Shown here one piece after another: positions 18,125-30,702 of a DNA stretch of 64,000 nt; the first letter of the stretch is position 1; each line of letters opens with the position of its first letter. The DNA is from Okeania sp. SIO2C9. GTDB lineage: Bacteria; Cyanobacteriota; Cyanobacteriia; Cyanobacteriales; Microcoleaceae. The stretch covers positions 78,255-142,254 of the forward strand of contig NZ_JAAHGO010000011.1 of NCBI RefSeq assembly GCF_010672455.1, written 5' to 3'. Position numbers and translations under genes: made by a program. The notes beneath the pieces are model-generated. The model ran no database searches. It was not told the DNA's origin and saw nothing but the letters and a program-made list of their open reading frames with translations.

Positions 18125-18752
18125 ATGTCATTTCAGTTATCAGTTATCAGTTATCAGTTAGCCTCATAAGGTTATAACTGCGGACTTCAGTACCTCTAGC
18201 TAAAGCAAATGGAAAAGCCTCTAATTAAATAGATTTCTATAGTTACTACATAACTTCTCTCTTTTGTCAAGCTTTATGTTAAGACAGATGTGGGTCATTT
18301 CAGTTATCAATTATCAGTACATCTGCAATAAAGAGGCTTGACATCAGGAATATTACCTTTTTTTATCCCCTTAAAAGGCTATCTCTTACCCATAAGTCTT
18401 GAAACCTTTGTGGGGAGCAGGGGAGAAAGGAGAAAAAATCATAGTAGCCAAGTAAAACTACTGAATTTGTCAAAAAAATGTATGAAAAAGTACATTTTTT
18501 CTCCCGAAAAAGCCTAACCAAGACTCATTCATGACTTGTCTATTTTGTCAAGTTTTATATTAAGAAAGATGTGGGTAATGGATAGCTTAAAAGGGGAGGC
18601 TTTAGACCGAATTTTTCGGTAATGGATAGAATTATAGAATCCGGTTATACAATATATCTTTATAATTCTATAATTACTTCAATATTCAATCTTCCCTACT
18701 CCCTCACTCCCCCACTCCCCTACTCCCCTACTCCCTATTTTTAGAAATAATT
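18125..18752. other. Repeat-filled gap between the two channel genes
   Basis: 628 bp without a gene: TTATCAG runs (18130-18160), an approximately 240-bp block (18360-18600) that recurs inverted at 19860-20105, a family C fragment (18570-18620) and a CTCCCCTACTCCC run (18697-18737) directly upstream of the next gene. The gap probably separates an ancestral two-gene operon. Confidence 0.6.
18360..18605 (+). repeat. Inverted-repeat arm, left copy
   Basis: Shares with 19860-20105, in inverse orientation, the ordered pieces CCCATAAGTCTTGAAA, the GGGGAGAAAGGAGAAAAAATC stretch, TACATTTTTTCTCCCGAAAA and TATTAAGAAAGATGTGGGTA. The pair brackets the ZorB-like gene. Confidence 0.65.
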
Positions 18753-19598
18753 ATGCGTCATCGTTCACGACTTGTTGAGGATAATCGCGACCTAGAAATT
18801 TGGCCGGCATTTACAGACTTAATGTCTAACTCTTTTATGATATTAAGTTTATTATTGCTATTAGCTATTATTAAATCTCTATTTATAGAGTCAATTTCTG
18901 ATGCCAACGAAAATCGTGCCCTACAACTGCAACAAGAAATTACTAATTTACAAAATCAAATTCAACAAAAGACTGGTGAAGTAACAGGATTACAAGGACA
19001 AATTGGTAATTTACAAAATCAAGTAACAAAATTACAAGGATTAGTAACTACATCTAAAGATGAACTAGAGCAAAAGTCAAATAGAGTCACACAACTAGAA
19101 ACAGAAATTGAAAAATTGAAGTCTCCACCTGTGATAGTAATTAGAGATTCTCAGTCTCGAAGATTTGAATCAGGAAGTGCGGAAATATCGGGAGATTTAA
19201 AAAGTTTTATTGAGGGAGATTTAATTAAACAAATAGAGGATTTTGCTAAGGAATATAAAGGTTATGTTGTTGAAGTAATAGGTCATACTGATGGTCAAGT
19301 AAATCAGAGAAGTGGAAGTAATTTAGATACTCAGTTAGAACAAGTTGCTAAGGGTAATGAATCTGTTAATAGTTTAGTACCAGGTTCAAATGCAGATTTA
19401 GGTTTGATGCGTGCTTTATCTGTTGTACAAGAACTGCAAAAAAATCCTCGTTTGAAAAAATTGGGTTTAAAATTTCGGGCTTATTCTGCAGCACAATTAT
19501 ATAATCCTGGGGGAGATTTTGCCGGGGTAAATCGTAATCCAAACCAGAGTCGGCGTCGGATAGAAGTTCGGTTTACTCCTAGTGCGGTTGAGAGGTAG
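18753..19598 (+). CDS. ZorB/MotB-like stator subunit with OmpA peptidoglycan-binding domain
   Basis: A 281-residue single-pass membrane protein. A short N-terminal cytoplasmic part leads into EIWPAFTDLMSNSFMIL with Asp22 at the start of the helix (about 22-43), the position of the ion-carrying Asp in MotB/ZorB proteins. Residues 50-125 form a coiled coil (LQQEITNLQNQIQQ repeats). Residues 130-275 are an OmpA-like domain with VVEVIGHTDGQ and NQSRRRIEVRF. It pairs with the MotA/ZorA-like gene upstream. Membrane topology and domain order agree with ZorB; no Zorya effector gene follows (next is uvrB). Confidence 0.72.
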   Translation: MRHRSRLVEDNRDLEIWPAFTDLMSNSFMILSLLLLLAIIKSLFIESISDANENRALQLQQEITNLQNQIQQKTGEVTGLQGQIGNLQNQVTKLQGLVTTSKDELEQKSNRVTQLETEIEKLKSPPVIVIRDSQSRRFESGSAEISGDLKSFIEGDLIKQIEDFAKEYKGYVVEVIGHTDGQVNQRSGSNLDTQLEQVAKGNESVNSLVPGSNADLGLMRALSVVQELQKNPRLKKLGLKFRAYSAAQLYNPGGDFAGVNRNPNQSRRRIEVRFTPSAVER

Positions 19599-19645
19599 GT
19601 TAAAGTTGAAAGCAAGATTTTTAGCACAGATGTAATTATAGATTT

Positions 19646-19774
19646 ATGAACACGGAACCAAAACTGATGTATGAATGGAGGGACATCAACTGGCGAAAAT
19701 TGGATAAGTTTGCCGAATATAGTGGCATTAATCCTCAGGACTCGTTTCAACAATTAATAATGAATCATGAATAA
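19646..19774 (+). pseudogene. Possible group II intron reverse transcriptase N-terminal scrap
   Basis: A 42-residue frame starting MNTEPKLMYEWRDINWRKL resembles the start of cyanobacterial group II intron maturases (W-x-D-I-x-W-x-K-L) and then diverges and runs into the family C repeat. The match is short and recalled rather than computed. Confidence 0.35.
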
Positions 19775-19859
19775 TGAATAATTACCTCTCCTTGAAAAGA
19801 AGAGGATTGACAAATTCATGAAAATTTTTTTTTATTATTAGTCAATCTTCTTCCTTTTA

Positions 19860-20105
19860 GGGCTATCCATTACCCACATCTTTCTTAATATAAAGCTTGA
19901 CAAAATAGACGAGTTATGCGTTAGTCTTGGCTCGGCTTTTTCGGGAGAAAAAATGTATTTTTCCATACTTTTTTTTGGACAACTTTAGTAGTTTTACTTA
20001 GCTACTATGATTTTTTCTCCTTTCTCCCCTGCTCCCTGCTCCCCTTCCTCTCCAGGGAGGGGTTAGGGGTGTAGAGGTGAGTCCCACAAGGTTTTCAAGA
20101 CTTAT
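19860..20105 (-). repeat. Inverted-repeat arm, right copy
   Basis: Inverse counterpart of 18360-18605. It contains an additional GGGAGGGGTTAGGGGT stretch. Confidence 0.65.
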
Positions 20106-20107
20106 GG

Positions 20108-20240
20108 TTCAACAATTAATAATGAATAATGAATAATGAATAATTACCTCTCCTTGAAAAGAAGAGGATTGACAAATTCATGAAAATTTTTTTTATTATC
20201 CCCTTAAAAGGGGAGGCTTTAAACCATAATTTTTCGGTAA
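20108..20240 (-). mobile_element. Family C element, copy 2
   Basis: Read on the minus strand: TTAC target, then CGAAAAATTATGGTTTAAAG, the palindrome TCCCCTTTTAAGGGGA, the CCTCTTCTTTTCAAGGAGAG hairpin, ATTATTCA repeats and terminal GTTGAA. Confidence 0.7.
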
Positions 20241-20479
20241 GGGATAGCTTTTAGGGAGAGGTAATTATCAATTATTCATGATCAATTATCAATTATCAAT
20301 TATTGAAATGGCTCCTAAGTTTGAAATTAAAATATATAGCGCTACGCATTAAGGTGTTTGATATGAATAGAAGCAGCAAACCCTTTTGTATTTCCCCTAT
20401 TGCCTTCCGGAGCTTTTGCCTGTTGCCTTGCGCGTAGCGCTATACAATTGAGAATAATATAAATACTGCTAAAATTATT

Positions 20480-22477
20480 ATGGCAAAATTTTGTTTGCAA
20501 GCTCCCTTTAAACCTACTGGTGACCAACCTGGAGCGATCGCTCAATTAACTGTTAATATTCAAGCTGGACATGACTTTCAAACATTACTAGGAGCTACAG
20601 GTACGGGTAAAACTTTTTCCATAGCTTCTGTAATTAAAAATGTTGGCAGACCGACGTTAGTTTTGGCTCATAATAAAACATTAGCTGCTCAATTATGTAA
20701 TGAGTTGCGCGATTTTTTTCCTAATAATGCGGTTGAGTATTTTGTTAGTTATTACGATTATTATCAACCGGAAGCTTATATTCCGGTGACGGATACATAT
20801 ATAGAAAAAACTGCTTCTATTAATGATGAGATTGATATGTTGCGTCACTCGGCAACTCGGTCTCTTTTTGAACGTAGAGATGTAATTGTTGTGGCTTCTA
20901 TTAGTTGTATTTATGGTTTGGGAATGCCTGCTGAATATTTAAAGGCTGCTATTTCTTTGCAGGTGGGAGAAGAAGTTAATCAACGACAAATTTTGAGAGA
21001 TTTAGCGACAGTTCAATACACCAGAAATGATTTAGATTTAGGTAGAGGAAAGTTTAGAGTTAAGGGCGATGTTTTGGAAATCGGACCTGCTTATGAGGAT
21101 AGAGTTATTCGGGTAGAATTTTTTGGGGATGAAATAGATGCTATTCGTTATGTTGACCCTGTAACTGGAAAGATTCTGCAAAGTTTAGAGTATTTAAATG
21201 TTTATCCTGCGCGTCACTTTGTTACTCCTGAAGAGAGGTTAGAAGCAGCTTGTAATGATATTGAAGCAGAATTAGATGAGCAATTAGAGGAATTAGAAAA
21301 GGCAGGAAAGTTGTTAGAAGCTCAACGTTTGGAACAGCGTTGTAGATATGATTTGGAAATGCTGCGGGAGGTGGGATATTGTAATGGTGTGGAAAATTAT
21401 TCTCGGCATTTAGCAGGTAGAAAAGCAGGGGAAGCGCCGGAATGTTTGATTGATTATTTTCCGGAAGATTGGTTATTAGTTATTGATGAATCTCATGTTA
21501 CTGTTCCACAAATTCGCGGAATGTATAATGGCGACCAAGCTAGGAAAAGAGTTTTAATTGAACATGGGTTTCGTTTGCCTAGTGCTGCGGATAATCGACC
21601 TTTAAAATCTGATGAATTTTGGCAAAAGGTTAATCAATGTATTTTGGTTTCTGCTACTCCTGGAAGTTGGGAAATAGAAAAGTCTGAGGAGAGAATTGTT
21701 GAGCAAATTATTCGTCCGACTGGTGTTGTTGACCCGAAAATTTTTGTGCGTCCGACTGAGGGTCAGGTTGATGATTTATTAGGGGAAATTAGGGAAAGGG
21801 TTAAGCAGGAAGAGAGGGTTTTAATTACAACTTTAACTAAGCGGATGGCTGAAGATTTGACTGAATATTTGCAGGAGCAAAATGTGAGGGTTCGTTATTT
21901 GCATTCGGAGATTAATTCTATTCAGAGAATTGAGATTTTGCAGGGGTTGAGAGAGGGAGATTTTGATGTTTTAATTGGGGTGAATTTATTACGGGAAGGT
22001 TTAGATTTACCGGAGGTTTCTTTAGTAGCTATTTTAGATGCGGATAAGGAGGGATTTTTACGAGCGGAACGTTCATTAATTCAGACTATTGGTAGGGCGG
22101 CGCGTCATGTCCGGGGTCAGGCTATTTTATATGCTGATAATTTGACGGATAGTATGATTAAAGCTATTGATGAAACTGAAAGAAGGCGAGGAATTCAGTT
22201 GGCATATAATAAGATGAATAATATTACACCTAAGCCTATTGTTAAGAAACAAAGTAATGCAATTTTGGCATTTTTGGATGTGTCGCGGCGTTTAAATGCT
22301 CAACAGTTGGAAGAGGTTTATGAGCAGGTGGATGAATTGTCTTTGGAAGAGTTACCGGAGTGGATTAAAAAGTTAGAAAGTCAGATGAAGGAAGCGGCGA
22401 AAAAATTGGAGTTTGAAGAGGCGGCTAAATTGCGGGATAGAATTAAGTATTTGCGGGATAAGTTGGTGGGTAATTAG
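20480..22477 (+). CDS. uvrB: UvrABC excinuclease subunit B
   Basis: A 665-residue nucleotide-excision-repair helicase, a normal family length. Walker A is GATGTGKT at 38-45. The DNA-clamping beta-hairpin region [12 protein letters not shown] is present, as are the Walker B/DEAH-like [11 protein letters not shown], the helicase motif VSATPG, motif [11 protein letters not shown], and the C-terminal UVR domain that contacts UvrC ([20 protein letters not shown]). The ATG at 20480 gives the conserved start [17 protein letters not shown]. The last approximately 140 bp, including the UVR helix-hairpin, are repeated downstream as orphan tails at 23248, 24159 and 26821. Confidence 0.97.
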
Positions 22478-22745: not shown

Positions 22746-23210
22746 ATGTTAAAAACTCTTACTGATATTTTAACTGACTATAAATTTTTTCTGGGATTAT
22801 TTCTTTCTGTTCCATTTGCCGTACTTGCCAATTTGTTAACTCCCAAGATTGAGAAATTTCTCTCATCTCGCAATTACCAATTAAAACAAGAGAGAATTAG
22901 AAAAATTAAGCAAGAGTATCAACAGGTAAAACAATATTATGAAAATAGAATTATATTGGTTGAGTATCTTTTAATTAATATATTAAAGACTATAGCTATA
23001 GGTTTTTTAATGATACTATTTGTTACTTGGCTTGATTCTACTTTTTCCGTTAGTATAGCTAATATATTAGCAAATTCTCTATCAAAAATATTAGTAATTT
23101 TGGGTTCACTCGTTATTGTAAATTGGACAACAAATGCACTGGATATTTATGCAAAAGTAAAAAACTATAACGATTATCAAAAAGAAGTATCAGATATTGT
23201 TCAGGAATAA
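22746..23210 (+). CDS. Small multi-pass membrane protein, paralogue 1
   Basis: A 154-residue protein with three hydrophobic segments: FFLGLFLSVPFAVLANLL (about 13-30), LINILKTIAIGFLMILFVTW (about 77-96) and ILVILGSLVIVNWTT (about 117-131). Between the first two lies a basic coiled helix (LKQERIRKIKQEYQQVKQYY). A Shine-Dalgarno-like TGGAGA precedes the ATG. Not recognised as a known family. It is the first of three near-identical paralogues produced by the tandem duplication with the uvrB tail. No function can be assigned. Confidence 0.75.
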   Translation: MLKTLTDILTDYKFFLGLFLSVPFAVLANLLTPKIEKFLSSRNYQLKQERIRKIKQEYQQVKQYYENRIILVEYLLINILKTIAIGFLMILFVTWLDSTFSVSIANILANSLSKILVILGSLVIVNWTTNALDIYAKVKNYNDYQKEVSDIVQE

Positions 23211-23247
23211 AATACTTTAATTATTATTTGACAAACAGGTAGATTAA

Positions 23248-23388
23248 TTATCTTTGGATGATATTCCGGACTTGATCAAAAAGTTAGAAAGTCAGATGAA
23301 GGAAGCGGCGAAAAATTTGGAATTTGAAGAGGCGGCTAAATTGCGGGATAGAATTAAATATTTGCGAGATAAGTTGGTGGGTAATTAG
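23248..23388 (+). pseudogene. uvrB: Orphan uvrB 3' tail, remnant 1
   Basis: 47 codons ([20 protein letters not shown]...) nearly identical to the UVR domain of uvrB and ending at the same TAG. A TAA at 23245 replaces the Glu codon just upstream (QVD-stop), so no protein is expected. Confidence 0.85.
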
Positions 23389-23656: not shown

Positions 23657-24121
23657 ATGTTAAAAATTTTGAGTGATATTTTAACTGATTATAAATTTTT
23701 CCTAGGATTATTTCTTTCTGTTCCATTTGCCGTATTTGCCAATTTGTTAACTCCCAAGATTGAGAAATTTCTCTCATCTCGCAATTACCAATTAAAACAA
23801 AAGAGAATTACAAAAATAAAGCAAGAGCATCAACAGGTTAAACAATATTATGAAAATAGAATTATATTGGTTGAGTATCTTTTAATTAATATATTAAAGA
23901 CTATAGCTATAGGTTTTTTAATGATTCTCTTTGTTACTTGGCTTGATTCTACTTTTTCCGCTAGTATAGCTAATATATTAGCAAATTCTCTATCAAAAAT
24001 ATTAGTAATTTTGGGTTCACTCGTTATTGTAAATTGGACAACAAATGCACTGGATATTTATGCAAAAGTGAAAAACTATAACGATTATCAAAAAGAAGTA
24101 TCAGATATTGTTCAGGAATAA
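23657..24121 (+). CDS. Small multi-pass membrane protein, paralogue 2
   Basis: 154 residues, more than 90 percent identical by eye to the product of 22746 (first residues MLKILSDIL; differences such as KRITKIKQEHQ). It has the same three hydrophobic segments and the same TGGAGA signal. Both copies are intact, which argues for selection or for a very recent duplication. Confidence 0.75.
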   Translation: MLKILSDILTDYKFFLGLFLSVPFAVFANLLTPKIEKFLSSRNYQLKQKRITKIKQEHQQVKQYYENRIILVEYLLINILKTIAIGFLMILFVTWLDSTFSASIANILANSLSKILVILGSLVIVNWTTNALDIYAKVKNYNDYQKEVSDIVQE

Positions 24122-24158
24122 AATACTTTAATTATTATTTGACAAACAGGTAGATTAA

Positions 24159-24305
24159 TTATCTTTGGATGATATTCCGGACTTGATTAAAAAGTTAGAA
24201 ACTCAGATGAAAGAAGCGGCGAAAAATTTAGAGTTTGAAGAGGCAGCTAAGTTGCGGGATAGAATTAAATATCTACGGGATAAATTAGTGGGTAATAGGG
24301 AGTAA
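24159..24305 (+). pseudogene. uvrB: Orphan uvrB 3' tail, remnant 2
   Basis: The same UVR-domain codons as remnant 1. The original stop is lost and the frame runs on through AGG GAG to TAA. It is preceded by the same QVD-stop. Confidence 0.85.
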
Positions 24306-24492
24306 GTTTTAGGTATTAGTTATTTGAACAATTTTGTCAGACTTATTATGATTGTCAGGTGAAAATTATGTCGAAAACGAGTAATGTTAAAGATTGAATA
24401 TCTCCAATGTTTATATAGAAGTGGCTAAATTAAATAAAGCTATCTTAGGATAGAGTTAACCTTAAAACTAAATCATTGATAAAAGTATAGAA

Positions 24493-25750
24493 ATGGATGA
24501 AAGAACTCAAGGTGCTTGGATTATTCATCATACAGATAAACTCCAAGATATGAAATATGCTGCCAATGATTATGAGAATATTAATCTTGCGGGAAAGTGT
24601 GGTTTATTACTATCTAGTTTGGCTGCTTCTGAAGAAATGTCTATATCTCACAAAAGGTTAAAAACTCTGGGTAAAGCTGCTAATATTAACTTGAAAACTA
24701 GAGATGCCAGTTATTTTAGATAAACTTGAAAAGCAAAAATTAATCAGCTCTAGCTCTACTGAAATTCATATTCTAGGACTGACTACTCCTGCTACATTGG
24801 AACATACAACATCAATTTTTTATGATGAAAATCCAGATAATACTGAAATTGCTGTTATAGATTTATCAGAAAAAATTTCTGAATTACCACAGGGGTATAA
24901 AAAAGCAAAAGAATATATAAGTGACACTTACAAAATATCTAATAAAAAAACTGATGATTTGCTAATTGGTTCAGAAGAAATTGGATTTATAGATGCAGCT
25001 AGTGTAGATGATTCTAGAAAAATTTTATTTAATGGTAATTTATTTAGGCATGATGATATAAGGAAAATTAATGCCGTCTGTTCTTCTTTATCTGAATCAG
25101 AAACTAGGAGAATTAAGGAGCTAGATGAACTTCTGAAATATCAAAGTTGTTTGCCTTTAGATATCGCACAATAAATTGTTGAGGAGAAACTATTTAGGAA
25201 ATTACATTCTATAGGTATATATGATGTCAATACTGTGAGTAATTAACTAGGCATACACAAATTTGTGACAAAACCATCTGCATTTTCAAAGTTTGGTAAT
25301 GCTACTGTTGAAGACGCATTTGATTTAGCTAAATTATTTGTAACGTCTTTAACATTTGGCATGACGAAAAGTCATTCTTATAGAGGAAAAATTACAATGA
25401 TTCAGAGACTTATGGAAAAGCTAATTGATGGAGAATGGGTTAGTCCAGCAACAGCTATTGGAAACGACTATAAAGTGTTAGAACTTCGCGGTGTAATTCA
25501 GGTTGAAGTATCGCTACAATATTTAAATAGATACAATATGAAACTTTTGAAAAAAGATGTTGGAGAATTAGCATTAAAAGTAATTAATGATGGTGATATT
25601 AGCACTGAAGTACTTATGTCAATTCCTAGTGCTTCAATAACAAACTATATAGCTCCTGAGCAAAATAGAACTTACGAAAGAAAGTCACAAAACTCACAAA
25701 CTGGAAAAAATGTTGCAGAATTATTAGATATATTGAGAAGTGGTAAATAG
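24493..25750 (+). pseudogene. Cassette gene 1: unknown protein, frameshifted and with two stops
   Basis: Four pieces read as one ancestral protein of about 415 residues: 24493-24723 (MDERTQGAWIIHHTDKLQDM, Ala-rich helix), a frameshift into 24704-25174 (winged-helix-like EMPVILDKLEKQKLI, then an Ile/Glu-rich body), an in-frame TAA at 25172, a short stretch KLFRKLHSIGIYDV, TAA at 25244, then 25265-25750 from a GTG (MTKPSAFSKFGN..., HSYRGKITMIQRLM, VLELRGVIQVE). The last piece (161 aa) could still be made alone. It ends 6 bp before the ATG of the nuclease-like gene. No known family was recognised. The coupling suggests a regulator or specificity partner of gene 2 (inference). Confidence 0.6.
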
Positions 25751-25756
25751 TTGATT

Positions 25757-26788
25757 ATGAAGCAAGAACTTGGCAAGGGTGAAACAGCAGAAGAAGCACT
25801 TAGAAAGTATTTTATCGAACAAAGTTATTTTGTAGTTCGTTCACTTCCATTTACATATAATCAAATTGACATTACAGATGTTGATCTATGGTTGTATAGT
25901 AAAGCTTCAGCTTTTTCTAGAGAACGGACTAATGTTGACATTAAAAACAAAAAGGATCCTAGAGCATTTGAAAGAATAATTTGGGCTAAGGGTTTACAGA
26001 CTACTTTAAAATTAGAAAGAGCTATTGTTGCTACAGCATCCACAAAAGATGAAGCTCAGAAATTTGGTTTGGCAAATAATATTATTGTGATAACTGGCGA
26101 TGTGTTAAAACAAATAATTTCTCGAAGAGTTAACTCAAATAGAATTACAGAAGAAAATTTTATTTCAGATATATCGACTCAAAATGTTGAAAAAAAAGAA
26201 GATGATTATAAAAGAAGATACCAGATGTCAAAAGGTAGGCTTTTAAGCAATTTTAATTTTAATGGTTGTAATGAATATCTCCAAGAAATAAATTTTTTTC
26301 TAGAACAAACTATGACAAAAGCAGATAATAATATCAGTATTCTAAGGCTTTTATATATCAATACAGCCTTTTTACTAATTTGTACTGACTTTGTTATTAA
26401 AGGATTTACTTCTGTTGATATAAAAACTAGAGTTGAAATTTTACAGAATGGATTTAATTACGGAGAGAGAGGTAAAGAAGGTACAGAAAGGATAACTAAT
26501 GCTGCTATTAAATTAGCATCTTCAGTAATAGGAAATAAAAATATTGCTACAACGCTTAAAAGAGAAGTTGATAAACAAACTAAGAATAGACCTGTTGAAA
26601 TTTTGTCAGATTACTTTTCTCAAACTACTAATATGAACTCCTTATTTAAAAATGCTAAATTTTTTGAGAGTTGTGCTTATTCAGAAGTTGTTACAACACC
26701 TTCAAAACTCCCAATAGAGCTGCAAAGTATAATCGGTTTATTGACTGATTTTTTCCGAATGGATAGAAAAAAAATATTGAATCTATAA
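25757..26788 (+). CDS. Cassette gene 2: PD-(D/E)XK-like restriction-type protein
   Basis: A 343-residue protein. The N-terminal 110 residues look like a restriction-endonuclease fold: GETAEEALRKYFIEQSYFVV (helix with Glu), then TDVDLWLY and, after a strand, NVDIKNK, i.e. the D...(D)xK active-site spacing (Asp43, Asp61, Lys63 counted from the ATG at 25757), then WAKGLQTTLKLERAIVATAS. The remaining approximately 200 residues are helical (LLSNFNFNGCNEYLQEINFF, LRLLYINTAFLLICTDFVI) and of unknown function. An in-frame TTG at 25751 is a less likely start. The gene follows the decayed partner by 6 bp. A defence or restriction role is inferred from the fold and context only. Confidence 0.6.
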   Translation: MKQELGKGETAEEALRKYFIEQSYFVVRSLPFTYNQIDITDVDLWLYSKASAFSRERTNVDIKNKKDPRAFERIIWAKGLQTTLKLERAIVATASTKDEAQKFGLANNIIVITGDVLKQIISRRVNSNRITEENFISDISTQNVEKKEDDYKRRYQMSKGRLLSNFNFNGCNEYLQEINFFLEQTMTKADNNISILRLLYINTAFLLICTDFVIKGFTSVDIKTRVEILQNGFNYGERGKEGTERITNAAIKLASSVIGNKNIATTLKREVDKQTKNRPVEILSDYFSQTTNMNSLFKNAKFFESCAYSEVVTTPSKLPIELQSIIGLLTDFFRMDRKKILNL

Positions 26789-26820
26789 ATTTATTAAATC
26801 TCTAGTAAATAATTCTTAAA

Positions 26821-26907
26821 AAAGCGGCGAAAAATTTGGAGTTTGAAGAGGCAGCTAAATTGCGGGATAGAATTAAATATTTGCGGGATAAATTAGTAGG
26901 TAATTAG
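26821..26907 (+). pseudogene. uvrB: Orphan uvrB 3' tail, remnant 3
   Basis: The last 28 codons of the UVR domain (EAAK-like [17 protein letters not shown]...) ending in TAG at 26905. This is the left part of the fourth duplication unit. Confidence 0.85.
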
Positions 26908-27062: not shown

Positions 27063-27518
27063 ATGTTAAAACTTTTGAGTGATATTTTAACTGATTATAA
27101 ATTTTTCCTGGGATTATTTCTTTCTGTTCCATTTGCTGTATTTGCCAATTTGTTAACTCCCAAAATTGATAAAATTCTCTCATCTCGCAGTTACAAATCA
27201 AAACAAAAGAGAATTAGAAAAATCAAGGAAGAATATCAACAAATTAAACAATATTATGAAAATAGAATGATGCTGGTTGAGTATCTTTTAATTAATATTT
27301 TAAAGACTATAACTTTAAGTTTTTTAATTATTTTCTCTGCTACTTGGTTTGATTCTCTTTTTTCCTCTAGGATGTTAGCAAATTCTCTATCAAAAATATT
27401 AGTAATGTTGGGTTCACTCGTTATTGTAAATTGGACGACAAATGCACTTAATATTTATACAAAAGTGAAACACTATAACGATTATCAAAAAGAAGTATCA
27501 GATATTATTCAGGAATAA
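27063..27518 (+). CDS. Small multi-pass membrane protein, paralogue 3
   Basis: 151 residues and the most diverged of the three paralogues (MLKLLSDIL..., SYKSKQKRIRKIKEEYQQIK, a three-residue deletion near SSRMLANSL). All three hydrophobic segments are kept. The higher divergence suggests that this unit split off first. Function unknown. Confidence 0.72.
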   Translation: MLKLLSDILTDYKFFLGLFLSVPFAVFANLLTPKIDKILSSRSYKSKQKRIRKIKEEYQQIKQYYENRMMLVEYLLINILKTITLSFLIIFSATWFDSLFSSRMLANSLSKILVMLGSLVIVNWTTNALNIYTKVKHYNDYQKEVSDIIQE

Positions 27519-27758: not shown

Positions 27759-27989
27759 ATGCTATCTATTGATGAACTAATGAAAGAAGCTTTATATCTA
27801 TCAAATACACAGAGAGCTTTTTTAGCAGAAAAGTTGGTAGAAAGTTTAGAGTTTGATATAGATGAAAAGACTCAAAAAGCTTGGATAAGTGAAGCTAAAA
27901 AACGTCGATATGAAATCTATAATGGTAATGTGTCACCTATACCAGGAGAAGAAACTTTAGCTGAAGTGAGGAAAATTTTAGAGCAATGA
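27759..27989 (+). CDS. Addiction-module antitoxin (Unstab_antitox-like)
   Basis: 76 residues from the ATG at 27759 (an in-frame TTG at 27744 is less likely). MLSIDELMKEALYLSNTQRA and LAEKLVESLEFDIDEKTQKA plus the ending ISEAKKRRYEIYNGNVSPIP are typical of the putative addiction module component family (PF09720), whose partner is a RelE/ParE-type toxin. The expected toxin start overlaps the stop as ATGA at 27986, but only six codons remain. The antitoxin is therefore an orphan. Confidence 0.78.
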   Translation: MLSIDELMKEALYLSNTQRAFLAEKLVESLEFDIDEKTQKAWISEAKKRRYEIYNGNVSPIPGEETLAEVRKILEQ

Positions 27990-28006
27990 AATATATTTTT
28001 CATTGA
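27986..28006 (+). pseudogene. Six-codon stump of a RelE/ParE-type toxin
   Basis: ATG AAA TAT ATT TTT CAT TGA overlaps the antitoxin stop in the usual translational-coupling arrangement (MKYIFH, a normal start for this toxin type). The reading ends exactly where the opposite-strand MazF relic ends, so a recombination joint is likely here. Confidence 0.5.
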
Positions 28007-28344
28007 TAACCTAAAGTAAATAATACAATACTTTCTAATTCATTTATGATGGTTGGACTTAGTTTTCCTAACTGGCGACCTAAACGAGTTTTATCTAATA
28101 CTCTTAATTGATGACATAAAGCAACTGAATCTTGATTTCATCCACCTTCATATTTAGGAATAAGTAAACAACTAGGCAAAGAACTTCGTCTTAAATTAGT
28201 AGTTAAAGGGATGGCAATAATAGTTGTAGTAAATTGATAAATTGTGTTTTCTTGAAAGATAATGACTGGACGAATTCCGGCTTGTTCATAACCTTGTGTG
28301 GGGTTAAGACTGGCAATCCAAATTTATCCTCGTTCAGTTTTCAT
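28000..28344 (-). pseudogene. MazF/PemK-type toxin with two in-frame stops
   Basis: The minus-strand frame begins MKTERG, then TAA, then IWIASLNPTQGYEQAGIRPV, the standard PemK/MazF start. It continues IPLTTNLRRSSLPSCLLIPK, an in-frame TGA, then NQDSVALCHQLRVLDKTRLG and a natural stop. All blocks of an endoribonuclease of about 114 residues are present, but two nonsense codons inactivate it. Its start overlaps the antitoxin stop (ATGA). Confidence 0.82.
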
Positions 28345-28574
28345 AGTCGTTCTTCTTGAGTTAATAAATCAGCAGATTCATTGATTCCTTCTTCGGCAAG
28401 TTGACGATCTTCTTCTGCAAATTCTTGATAAAGTTGGGCTAATTTTTCTGTATTTAGGTTAGGTTTAATTAACTTTTCTCTGAATTTTAGAAAGGTGATA
28501 AAGTCAGCAACTTGGTTAAGTTGTTCTTCATTTAATTGGTTCAATTGTTGATTTATTTGTTCTTTTGCGTTCAT
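28341..28574 (-). CDS. Antitoxin of the MazF-type module
   Basis: 77 residues from the ATG at 28574: MNAKEQINQQLNQLNEEQLN, VADFITFLKFREKL, then an acidic tail with LAEEGINESADLL. The form is that of DUF2281/MazE-like cyanobacterial antitoxins encoded directly before PemK toxins. The toxin downstream is broken, so this is a surviving antitoxin. A longer TTG/ATG-initiated reading upstream has no support. Confidence 0.7.
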   Translation of the reverse strand: MNAKEQINQQLNQLNEEQLNQVADFITFLKFREKLIKPNLNTEKLAQLYQEFAEEDRQLAEEGINESADLLTQEERL

Positions 28575-28747
28575 AGTATTAGTTGAGATGTATAAAAAAA
28601 TAAATACTAAATGGGTTCTATACTCATAGCTAGCAAATTCCTGTTTCAACTAGACCCTACAATTTTGAATATTTTTATTGTAGCAAAAGTTTTGATAATA
28701 TCAAAAGAGTAGAGGAAAAAAATCCCAGGATAAAGGCAGATAAATTT

Positions 28748-30109
28748 ATGCTAAAAAAACTACGACTAGAAAACTTTAAAAACTTCAAAAATGCCGAACT
28801 ATATCTAGACTCATTTACTATTTTAATCGGCACTAACGCTTCTGGAAAAAGTAACATTCGAGATGCCCTACGATTTTTACATGGTATTTCTCGTGGCTAT
28901 AACCTTGCTGAAATTATGGGGGAAAAATATGTAGAAGGTGGTGTTTTGCAATGGCGTGGTATTAGGGGAGGTACAAAAGAAGCTAGTTTTCAGGGTAATA
29001 ATTTTGGTTTGGAAGTGACATTTTCTATCCCCGACTATTCTCAAGAAAAGGAAACTGAACAAGAAGCAATTTATGAGATTGAGGTTAATTTAGGAAGCGA
29101 TAATCAACCACCGAATATTATGACAGAAAGATTGACATTTACTGGAGAATCAGAAAGTTTAATTGAAGCTAAATTACAGGTTGAAAAAGAAACAAAAAAT
29201 TTAATTGTTAAAGTATATAATCAACCCTACCAAAATCCGCTAATTCCTTTAAGTTTTCACCAACCTATTCTTTCACAAATGGCACAAATAACTAATGTTC
29301 CTATAGTAGAAGGATATATACGACCAAGTTTGTCAAGAGAGAAGTTAAAAGCTGCCCTACAAGAATTAGATCTTCCTGTAGGAGAAGAATATATACTAAC
29401 AACTTCTTTAAGAGACAAGTTAAAATTTACCCTACAAGCATTTAGTAATATGAGATTTCTGGATATCAACCCAGAAGTGATACGTTTACCATCCTTTCCC
29501 GGACAGAATGTTTTGGGCGATCGCGGTGAAAATCTTTCATCTGTACTGTTAGATATTTGTCAAAATACCCAAAAAAAAGAAACACTGCTGGAATGGATAC
29601 GGGAACTTACTCCAATGGATGCTAAAGATTTTGAGTTTCCGACTGATTTTACAGGCAAAACTTTACTAACCTTAGTAGAAGAAAACGGACAAAAAATATC
29701 AGCTTATAGTGCATCAGATGGCACTCTACGTTTTCTAGCAATAATTGCAGCTTTGCTTGGTTCAGAGTCAGCTCAATTTTACTTTTTTGAAGAACTAGAT
29801 AATGGCATTCACCCCACCCGTTTGCATTTCCTACTTCAACTTATTGAAAGTCAAGCTTCTCAAGGAAAAATCCAAATTATTGCAACTACTCATTCTTCCC
29901 AGTTGCTTAGATTGGTGAGCGATCGTACCTTAGAAGCAGTATCATTAATCTATCGTTTAGAAAACCGATCCGATGCCAAAATTATCCGTGTTTTAGATAT
30001 TCCAGATGCACCGCGTATTCTCAATGAACAAAGTTTGGCTCACCTTCACGAGTCAGCATGGTTAGAAAATGTGATGGAGTTTATCAGTGATGATGAGGTA
30101 GATGAATGA
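28748..30109 (+). CDS. AAA-type ATPase (SMC/RecF-like, OLD/AriA-type architecture)
   Basis: 453 residues. The start KKLRLENFKNFKNAELYLDS is the classic RecF/SMC-type N-terminus. Walker A is GTNASGKS at 28-35. Near the C-terminus are the ABC-like signature SASDGTLRFLAIIAALL, Walker B FYFFEELDNGIHP, and the His of ATTHSSQLL. No coiled-coil insertion is large enough for an SMC. The stop codon overlaps the start of the next gene (ATGA at 30106-30109), so the two are translationally coupled. ATPase plus TOPRIM-like partners are found in PARIS, RloA/RloB and Class 2 OLD systems. A defence role is inferred. Confidence 0.75.
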   Translation: MLKKLRLENFKNFKNAELYLDSFTILIGTNASGKSNIRDALRFLHGISRGYNLAEIMGEKYVEGGVLQWRGIRGGTKEASFQGNNFGLEVTFSIPDYSQEKETEQEAIYEIEVNLGSDNQPPNIMTERLTFTGESESLIEAKLQVEKETKNLIVKVYNQPYQNPLIPLSFHQPILSQMAQITNVPIVEGYIRPSLSREKLKAALQELDLPVGEEYILTTSLRDKLKFTLQAFSNMRFLDINPEVIRLPSFPGQNVLGDRGENLSSVLLDICQNTQKKETLLEWIRELTPMDAKDFEFPTDFTGKTLLTLVEENGQKISAYSASDGTLRFLAIIAALLGSESAQFYFFEELDNGIHPTRLHFLLQLIESQASQGKIQIIATTHSSQLLRLVSDRTLEAVSLIYRLENRSDAKIIRVLDIPDAPRILNEQSLAHLHESAWLENVMEFISDDEVDE

Positions 30110-30702
30110 ACGTTTTAGTCATACCGGAGGATTTTCGCAAAGACCAATATATGCTCAAACCTATTATTACTGCTATGATCAAAGCTGTGAAAAAAAGGAG
30201 TGGCAGCATTAAAGTCAGGATTTGTCAAAACCCTCTACTTGGAGGAATAAGTGAAGCTTTAAAATGGGAAAATATTGAAACCATTATCAATCAATATCCA
30301 ATGGTTGACCTGTTTCTACTCTGCGTAGACCGAGACGGTAAGGAAGGTCACAAAGTAGCTTTAGATAAAATTGAAAAACAAGCTACCGAGATTTTAGGCG
30401 ATCGGCAGTTATTTTTGGCAGAAAATGCTTGGCAGGAAATCGAAGTTTGGGTTTTAGCTGGTTTAAAAGACTTACCAAGAGAGTATAATTGGCAAGAAAT
30501 TCGTCAAGAAATTAATCCTAAAGAAATTTATTTTTTACCTTTACTTCAACAGAAAAAACTATTAGATTCTGTTGGAGAAGGTCGTAAAGAGTTAGCTAAA
30601 GAAGCGGCGCAACAGTATGACCGCATTCGTCAATTATGTTCTGAAGATATTGGCAACTTAGAAAGTCGAATTAAGGGGTTGCTTATTGGTAATGATTTTT
30701 AG
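30106..30702 (+). CDS. TOPRIM-like partner (DUF4276/RloB-like)
   Basis: 198 residues. MNVLVIPEDFRKDQYMLKPI has the strand-Glu of a TOPRIM-like fold, and VDLFLLCVDRDGKEGHKVAL provides the D-x-D acidic pair. A third conserved-looking region is AENAWQEIEVWVLAGLKDLP. The C-terminal half is helical. Overlap by 4 bp with the upstream ATPase makes a two-gene unit. The assignment to DUF4276/RloB versus DUF4435 (AriB) is uncertain; the acidic motifs are seen, the family name is recalled. Confidence 0.62.
   Translation: MNVLVIPEDFRKDQYMLKPIITAMIKAVKKRSGSIKVRICQNPLLGGISEALKWENIETIINQYPMVDLFLLCVDRDGKEGHKVALDKIEKQATEILGDRQLFLAENAWQEIEVWVLAGLKDLPREYNWQEIRQEINPKEIYFLPLLQQKKLLDSVGEGRKELAKEAAQQYDRIRQLCSEDIGNLESRIKGLLIGNDF

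Follow-up and report, generated by a model that had tools for sequence, protein, structure and literature searches.

What do two adjacent genes do together when one of them has decayed and the other, which looks like a nuclease gene, has stayed open? This question is raised by a cassette at 24306-26817 of the window, by which we mean the whole stretch of 64,000 nucleotides analyzed here from Okeania sp. SIO2C9 (contig NZ_JAAHGO010000011.1). Gene 1 (24493..25750, forward strand), which would have encoded a winged-helix protein, carries one frameshift and two stops, and gene 2 (25757..26788, forward strand) runs uninterrupted from an ATG at 25757 to a stop at 26788, with 6 bp between the two genes. 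The 343-aa product of gene 2 comprises a PD-(D/E)XK nuclease-like domain (residues ~1-125) and an all-helical C-terminal part (~130-341). The ORFs of the window, taken together with the profile match, split gene 1 into four open pieces. The frameshift lies near 24,700, where profile positions 1-69 and 68-226 fall in different frames, and the stops occupy 25172-25174 (between profile positions 226 and 229) and 25244-25246 (between 251 and 256). The decay of gene 1 and the intactness of its neighbor, as given in a preliminary description of this DNA, were thus confirmed.

The cassette had also been described as lodged inside a tandem duplication, with uvrB tails on either side, and this was borne out. 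A repeat that we take, by eye, to be the tail of uvrB is seen at 23236-23385, 24147-24299 and 26818-26904 as well as at 22325-22474, where the real gene ends, and no further copy was found in this genome beyond the four. The complete repeat to the left of the cassette (24147..24299) and the partial one to its right (26818..26904), both on the forward strand, share 87 bp at 93% identity. A 911-bp tandem unit, made of a 154-aa ORFan and a uvrB tail, is present in two copies before the cassette (96% identical). The ORFan, membrane-like by eye, is encoded on the forward strand at 22746..23210 in the first unit and at 23657..24121 in the second, and a third copy of 151 aa, 80% identical to the first as protein, follows the cassette (27063..27518, forward strand). 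When 119 other genomes from the same order were searched for it, a single one gave a weak match. The uvrB-tail repeats are a local curiosity.

Other features of the window deserve mention. In the region 28748-30702, an AAA_21/AAA_15 ATPase gene located 2 kb downstream of the pair matches the PADLOC candidate PDC-M07A (E 1.3e-72) and overlaps a 198-aa gene without a Pfam family, a second defence candidate. Between them and the cassette, the region 27774-28649 holds an Unstab_antitox-type addiction gene and, on the opposite strand, a 102-aa gene whose Pfam matches all stay below threshold; by eye, the stretch separating these two genes resembles a broken addiction-module toxin gene. Finally, the gene at 18753-19595 (region 18249-20294) is surrounded by long repeats, of which those of 128, 66 and 50 nt are inverted and one of 87 nt is direct.

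Pairing, distribution and neighbors of the two genes

A search for the pair in other bacteria placed a gene 1 homologue directly 5' of gene 2 in all 46 loci, namely the window and 45 others (L001-L023, L028-L030, L065-L076, L078-L082, L087, L090) that were reached through searches with either gene, some of them near-copies of each other (e.g., L071-L073; L069 with L070). Gene 2 was in one open frame in 46 of the 46 loci and gene 1 in 42. In two Rubrobacter plasmids the profile matches only the first third of gene 2, and the annotated genes are full length. Where measured, the spacing between the two genes ranged from -4 to +7 bp, and uninterrupted gene 1 homologues at these loci were 413-429 aa long. 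Distance matrices of the two genes correlated strongly over 23 loci (r = 0.948, a value reached by none of 5,000 shuffles), with a mean identity of 50% for protein 1 versus 46% for protein 2. Gene 1 and gene 2 evolve in coupled fashion.

When one genome per species was scanned, gene 2 had 23 relatives with 33-42% identity in many phyla. Within the phylum of the window it was found in 4 of 386 genomes, corresponding to the gene itself, two full relatives (66 and 41% identity) and one fragment. Seven plasmid records and seven viral contigs also matched gene 2, and no match was obtained in 50,697 phage genome records. Searches with gene 1 retrieved 2 of 395, 3 of 386 and 6 of 398 genomes, nine viral contigs and again those seven plasmid records. 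Among 5,426 complete E. coli genomes, 22 carry the pair, annotated as two hypothetical proteins. The gene 2 tree grouped several phyla on supported branches, a mixing that fits horizontal spread, short of proof.

We then considered which genes accompany the pair. Proteins of 150-1500 aa encoded within 4 kb of the pair at 23 loci were compared with PADLOC models (cut-off E 1e-15), together with control proteins passing the same filter. The 130 flank proteins (of 131, one of 1455 aa being left out) matched 351 models and the 128 controls matched 17, counts that refer to models rather than proteins, with overlap among related models. Controls were drawn at random (131 of 235, three long ones being left out of the scan) from 20 other regions of the pair-holding contigs in 13 of the 23 genomes, the nearest lying ~6 kb from a flank region. 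The first 25 of the 351 flank models include type I restriction enzymes, type II and III methyltransferases, Gabija, Lamassu and AriA, and the 17 control models include mad2, mad3, mad8, RtcR, RecD-like, SoFic, DolB and candidate PDC models. Similarly, the first 25 of 114 Pfam families found in the flanks comprise type I restriction subunits, Vsr, UvrD, AAA_15, ArdA and integrases. Neighbors of other copies include a CAP12/Pycsar TIR gene (L074), a reverse transcriptase gene (L067) and an ABC-three component gene (L090). The enrichment in defence islands, for which a check had been proposed, was therefore observed, and carriage on mobile elements, described below, also backs the defence reading. 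No single PADLOC model, methyltransferase models included, matched more than 3 of the 130 flank proteins.

Of note, in three E. coli genomes (L087, L088 and L089) the pair adjoins hxsDBCA, a His-Xaa-Ser radical SAM system, as well as a TIGR04141 or DUF6119 gene. In two Chryseobacterium loci (L011, 5826-6365, and L015, 5823-6362), a 180-aa gene lies directly upstream of the pair, and by eye these two genes are probably the source of the two ArdA antirestriction matches in the flanks.

Predicted folds and a candidate mechanism

The AlphaFold2 model of protein 2 was of high confidence (pLDDT 89.9, pTM 0.90) and showed, in order, a helix, three strands, a helix and a strand, followed by ~200 residues of helices. 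Using Foldseek, it matched MspJI (the top match) and BamHI with a probability of 1.00 and Can2 with 0.99, the best E-value being 4.7e-3. The better matches include MspJI, AspBHI, EndoMS, BamHI, Can2, Ecl18kI, NucC and Cap4, all of which we take to be PD-(D/E)XK enzymes. None reached an E-value below 0.001, and the same held for a viral structure library, in which the matches were generic and several were named restriction endonucleases. Residues E12, D41, D43, D61 and K63 were invariant in all 36 aligned gene 2 sequences, the most distant included, as were K7, G8, R28, E72, R73 and G79 and, in the helical part, four further residues. Since D41, D43, D61 and K63 are kept in all 36 sequences, the D..DxK spacing first noticed in the 343-aa protein is not due to chance. 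Fold and conservation both uphold the earlier PD-(D/E)XK assignment, and the large helical C-terminus mentioned with it corresponds to the all-helical part of the model. Protein 2 is very probably a PD-(D/E)XK nuclease.

Neither protein was placed in a family by the libraries scanned. For Pfam and PADLOC the queries were the window proteins plus the members of the two alignments; for NCBIfam and PHROGs they were the window proteins alone. Among the components listed in PADLOC-DB 2.0.0 (2023), a CARF-nuclease model, the generic PD_DExK, matched one of 26 gene 2 members (6.5e-4), which was the sole family hint with the right fold, and 0 of 23 gene 1 members had a match at E 0.01. Pfam scans detected no SRA or PUA domain in the pair and no CARF domain in protein 2. 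Sequences of solved structures gave nothing useful with gene 2 or with either alignment. A housekeeping origin for the 343-aa protein, for which profile searches had been recommended, was rejected, as no such family matched in Pfam, PADLOC, NCBIfam, PHROGs or the solved-structure sequences. A YacP-like match of gene 2 in Pfam (E 0.009, one of 26 members) was set aside.

For protein 1, we modeled an uninterrupted relative (locus L025), with moderate confidence (pLDDT 74.3, pTM 0.64). The model consists of helix-rich units, each ending in beta hairpins, and its Foldseek matches include the multi-winged-helix proteins RPC62, TFIIIC, ScpB, MAGE, SarS and Fur, with no structural match at E <0.001. 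We infer that protein 1 is made of four tandem winged helices. Because the model is moderate and the matches are weak, DNA binding by this protein is a guess. Residues 251-356 were the most conserved of the five stretches compared (61% mean identity). A link of gene 1 to Cas7g/Csb1 (E 0.005 with the last piece; 0.014 in one of 23 members) was set aside as probable chance.

Taken together, these observations lead us to favor, as the probable answer, a mobile two-component anti-phage module of restriction-like type in which protein 1 is the reader and protein 2 the nuclease. A winged-helix reader joined to a nuclease would explain the pairing, the folds, the genomic setting and the direction of decay. 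In such a module, protein 1 would most likely bind DNA through its tandem winged helices, sensing or positioning, and would recruit or license protein 2 on foreign DNA; protein 2 would then cut phage DNA in a metal-dependent manner. We infer this defence role and mechanism, from DNA binding by protein 1 and complex formation to the cutting of phage DNA and a rule sparing the DNA of the host. No methyltransferase was detected within the pair (Pfam and PADLOC scans) or as a constant flank partner at the 23 loci, although such an enzyme may be encoded elsewhere in the genome, and the pair would represent restriction-like defence without a dedicated methyltransferase. Since no methyltransferase is a constant neighbor, the rule sparing the host would have to lie in recognition by protein 1 or in a trigger.

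One such rule would be that of modification-dependent (type IV-like) restriction, with the winged helices reading modified bases and the nuclease cutting nearby. Such a rule falls within the restriction-like reading as one form of it, so that the odds of the two overlap, and we regard it as possible if somewhat doubtful. It agrees with the flanks, where no single methyltransferase model matches more than 3 of the 130 proteins, and with the top Foldseek match of protein 2, MspJI, being a modification-dependent enzyme, a resemblance of fold only. Moreover, the winged-helix domains of DpnI and HhiV4I act as 6mA sensors (PMC11037411). However, the likeness to MspJI is limited to the nuclease core, no PUA or SRA domain was seen in the Pfam scans, the winged helices of the pair sit in a separate protein, and the present data do not distinguish this target rule from others.

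Broken copies of gene 1

A partner decaying beside an intact nuclease gene, the feature found unusual in the preliminary description, is not peculiar to the window and recurs in a few other records. Gene 1 was broken and gene 2 open at 4 of the 46 loci (the window, L005, L012 and L065) as well as on one Vibrio plasmid. At L005, only gene 1 positions 195-415 are left, near the contig start and behind an ORF that is transposase-like by eye. L012 has a frameshift in gene 1, possibly an error since the genome was assembled from a metagenome. At L065, an insert interrupts gene 1 at around residue 23, and its ORFs also look transposase-like by eye. Of the four Vibrio plasmids, one has gene 1 disrupted by an annotated IS5-like element and gives a single unbroken match for gene 2, according to the match tables only. 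Overall, gene 1 was broken five times and gene 2 never, leaving out the doubtful L027, a fragment resembling gene 2 (33% identity, E 1.4e-4) with five stops, which was not counted because the profile does not find it. Should L027 be a genuine remnant, it would be the only decayed gene 2 observed, and it has no adjacent gene 1.

This 5-to-0 direction is only suggestive. By length, gene 1 would receive ~55% of the breaks, giving a chance of ~0.05 for five of five, and loci found through gene 2 are biased towards a whole gene 2. Searches with gene 1, which lack that bias, yielded three broken copies of gene 1 (the window, G304 and the Vibrio plasmid) and no broken gene 2.

In the window, gene 1 departs at 4 of the 56 columns that do not vary among the other relatives, versus 0 of 56 for its nearest relative, L025, and at 12 of 105 columns conserved at the 90% level, versus 6 for L025. 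Based on these departures, it looks like a recent pseudogene, and the module of the window is therefore probably off, with gene 2 still open. Gene 2 departs at 3 of 39 invariant columns in both the window and L025, and at 10 and 7 of 71 columns at the 90% level, respectively. When rows were left out in turn, the window gene 2 departed at 7 of 68 near-invariant columns; of the 25 other rows, three departed at more such columns, and the window thus exceeds 22. Gene 2 retains an open frame and the residues of the active site, but in view of these departures full constraint on it is not clear, and it may be relaxing too.

The broken copies bear on whether the pair could be a toxin-antitoxin or abortive system, with protein 2 as a toxic nuclease and protein 1 as a neutralizing, DNA-binding antitoxin and autorepressor. 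A winged-helix gene placed tightly upstream of a nuclease gene, on mobile elements, has the right layout. Yet a typical antitoxin is small, and protein 1 is the larger of the two proteins and no less conserved than protein 2. Furthermore, a lone toxin should be the first to go, and gene 2 is open where gene 1 is broken, a point that loses force if such breaks are polar and shut down gene 2 as well. That all the broken copies lost gene 1 is a weak argument against gene 1 as an antidote, and weakly favors an activator or targeting subunit over a restrainer. The fit to the layout is also poorer than the decay suggests, and we find a toxin-antitoxin pair unlikely.

Returning to the reader and nuclease, a fuller version may be proposed tentatively. 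The winged-helix array of protein 1 would read a feature of foreign DNA and license a Card1/MspJI-like nuclease, forming an immune system that tells self from non-self without a methyltransferase across many phyla, and breakage would hit the reader before the nuclease, since a nuclease left on its own would do no harm. That gene 1 has been broken repeatedly is in any case a natural hint as to which half carries the cost.

Mobile carriage and relation to known systems

Among the five viral contigs read by eye, the pair lies antisense within P2-like tail genes in L069 and L073 and within Mu-like head genes in L074. In E. coli W2-5, the one examined of 19 similar genomes, its proteins are WP_023142848.1 and WP_023142847.1, and it is the first cargo after the integrase gene at tRNA-Pro. 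The presence of the pair on plasmids, prophage-like contigs and integrative elements could mean that it serves the DNA of these elements (transfer, replication or exclusion of rivals) rather than host defence, but no constant element type or third partner gene was seen, the flanks are rich in unrelated defence systems and the scan of one genome per species also found the pair on contigs of 23 genomes spanning many phyla, which makes this very unlikely. Strict pairing in 46 of 46 loci, flank enrichment and mobile carriage instead support the two-component restriction or defence system initially suggested.

The pair is probably an undescribed bacterial immune system that recurs in many bacteria, and adds a conserved and compact defence candidate absent from the family libraries scanned. 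In the literature, in which papers are not searchable by sequence, no publication could be tied to the pair and none contained the accessions searched. DefensePredictor led to 42 E. coli transcription units that were validated, with PD-(D/E)XK domains present in 13 of the 31 that make up one group (PMC13092281); the pair may be among these validated units. The E. coli version could be tested in a laboratory strain, and the pair raises the question of what keeps a nuclease that has a winged-helix partner from cutting the DNA of its host when no methylase is a constant companion.

Several known systems share part of this organization. Gabija is a two-gene cassette with a nuclease-like effector. 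PARIS (AriA-AriB) has the same layout as the pair and was described from a P4 satellite hotspot (PMC9122126); in contrast to both systems, no ATPase family was matched in the pair by Pfam scans. The tripartite HTH-wHTH array of BrxA/DUF4007, a defence protein of BREX and related systems, can be likened to protein 1 (PMC12839542), whereas all 23 gene 1 members lack a PADLOC match and the pair is without the BREX ATPase, PglZ or methyltransferase. DpnI, HhiV4I and related type IV endonucleases combine a winged helix with a nuclease, as the pair does (PMC11037411), but in one fused polypeptide rather than in two genes with an array of winged helices. With MspJI, Can2/Card1 (CARF nucleases) and BamHI, protein 2 has in common the nuclease core fold and the D...DxK active site. 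It differs from them in being devoid of SRA or CARF domains in Pfam scans, and in having its own all-helical C-terminal part and, at every locus examined, a winged-helix partner gene.
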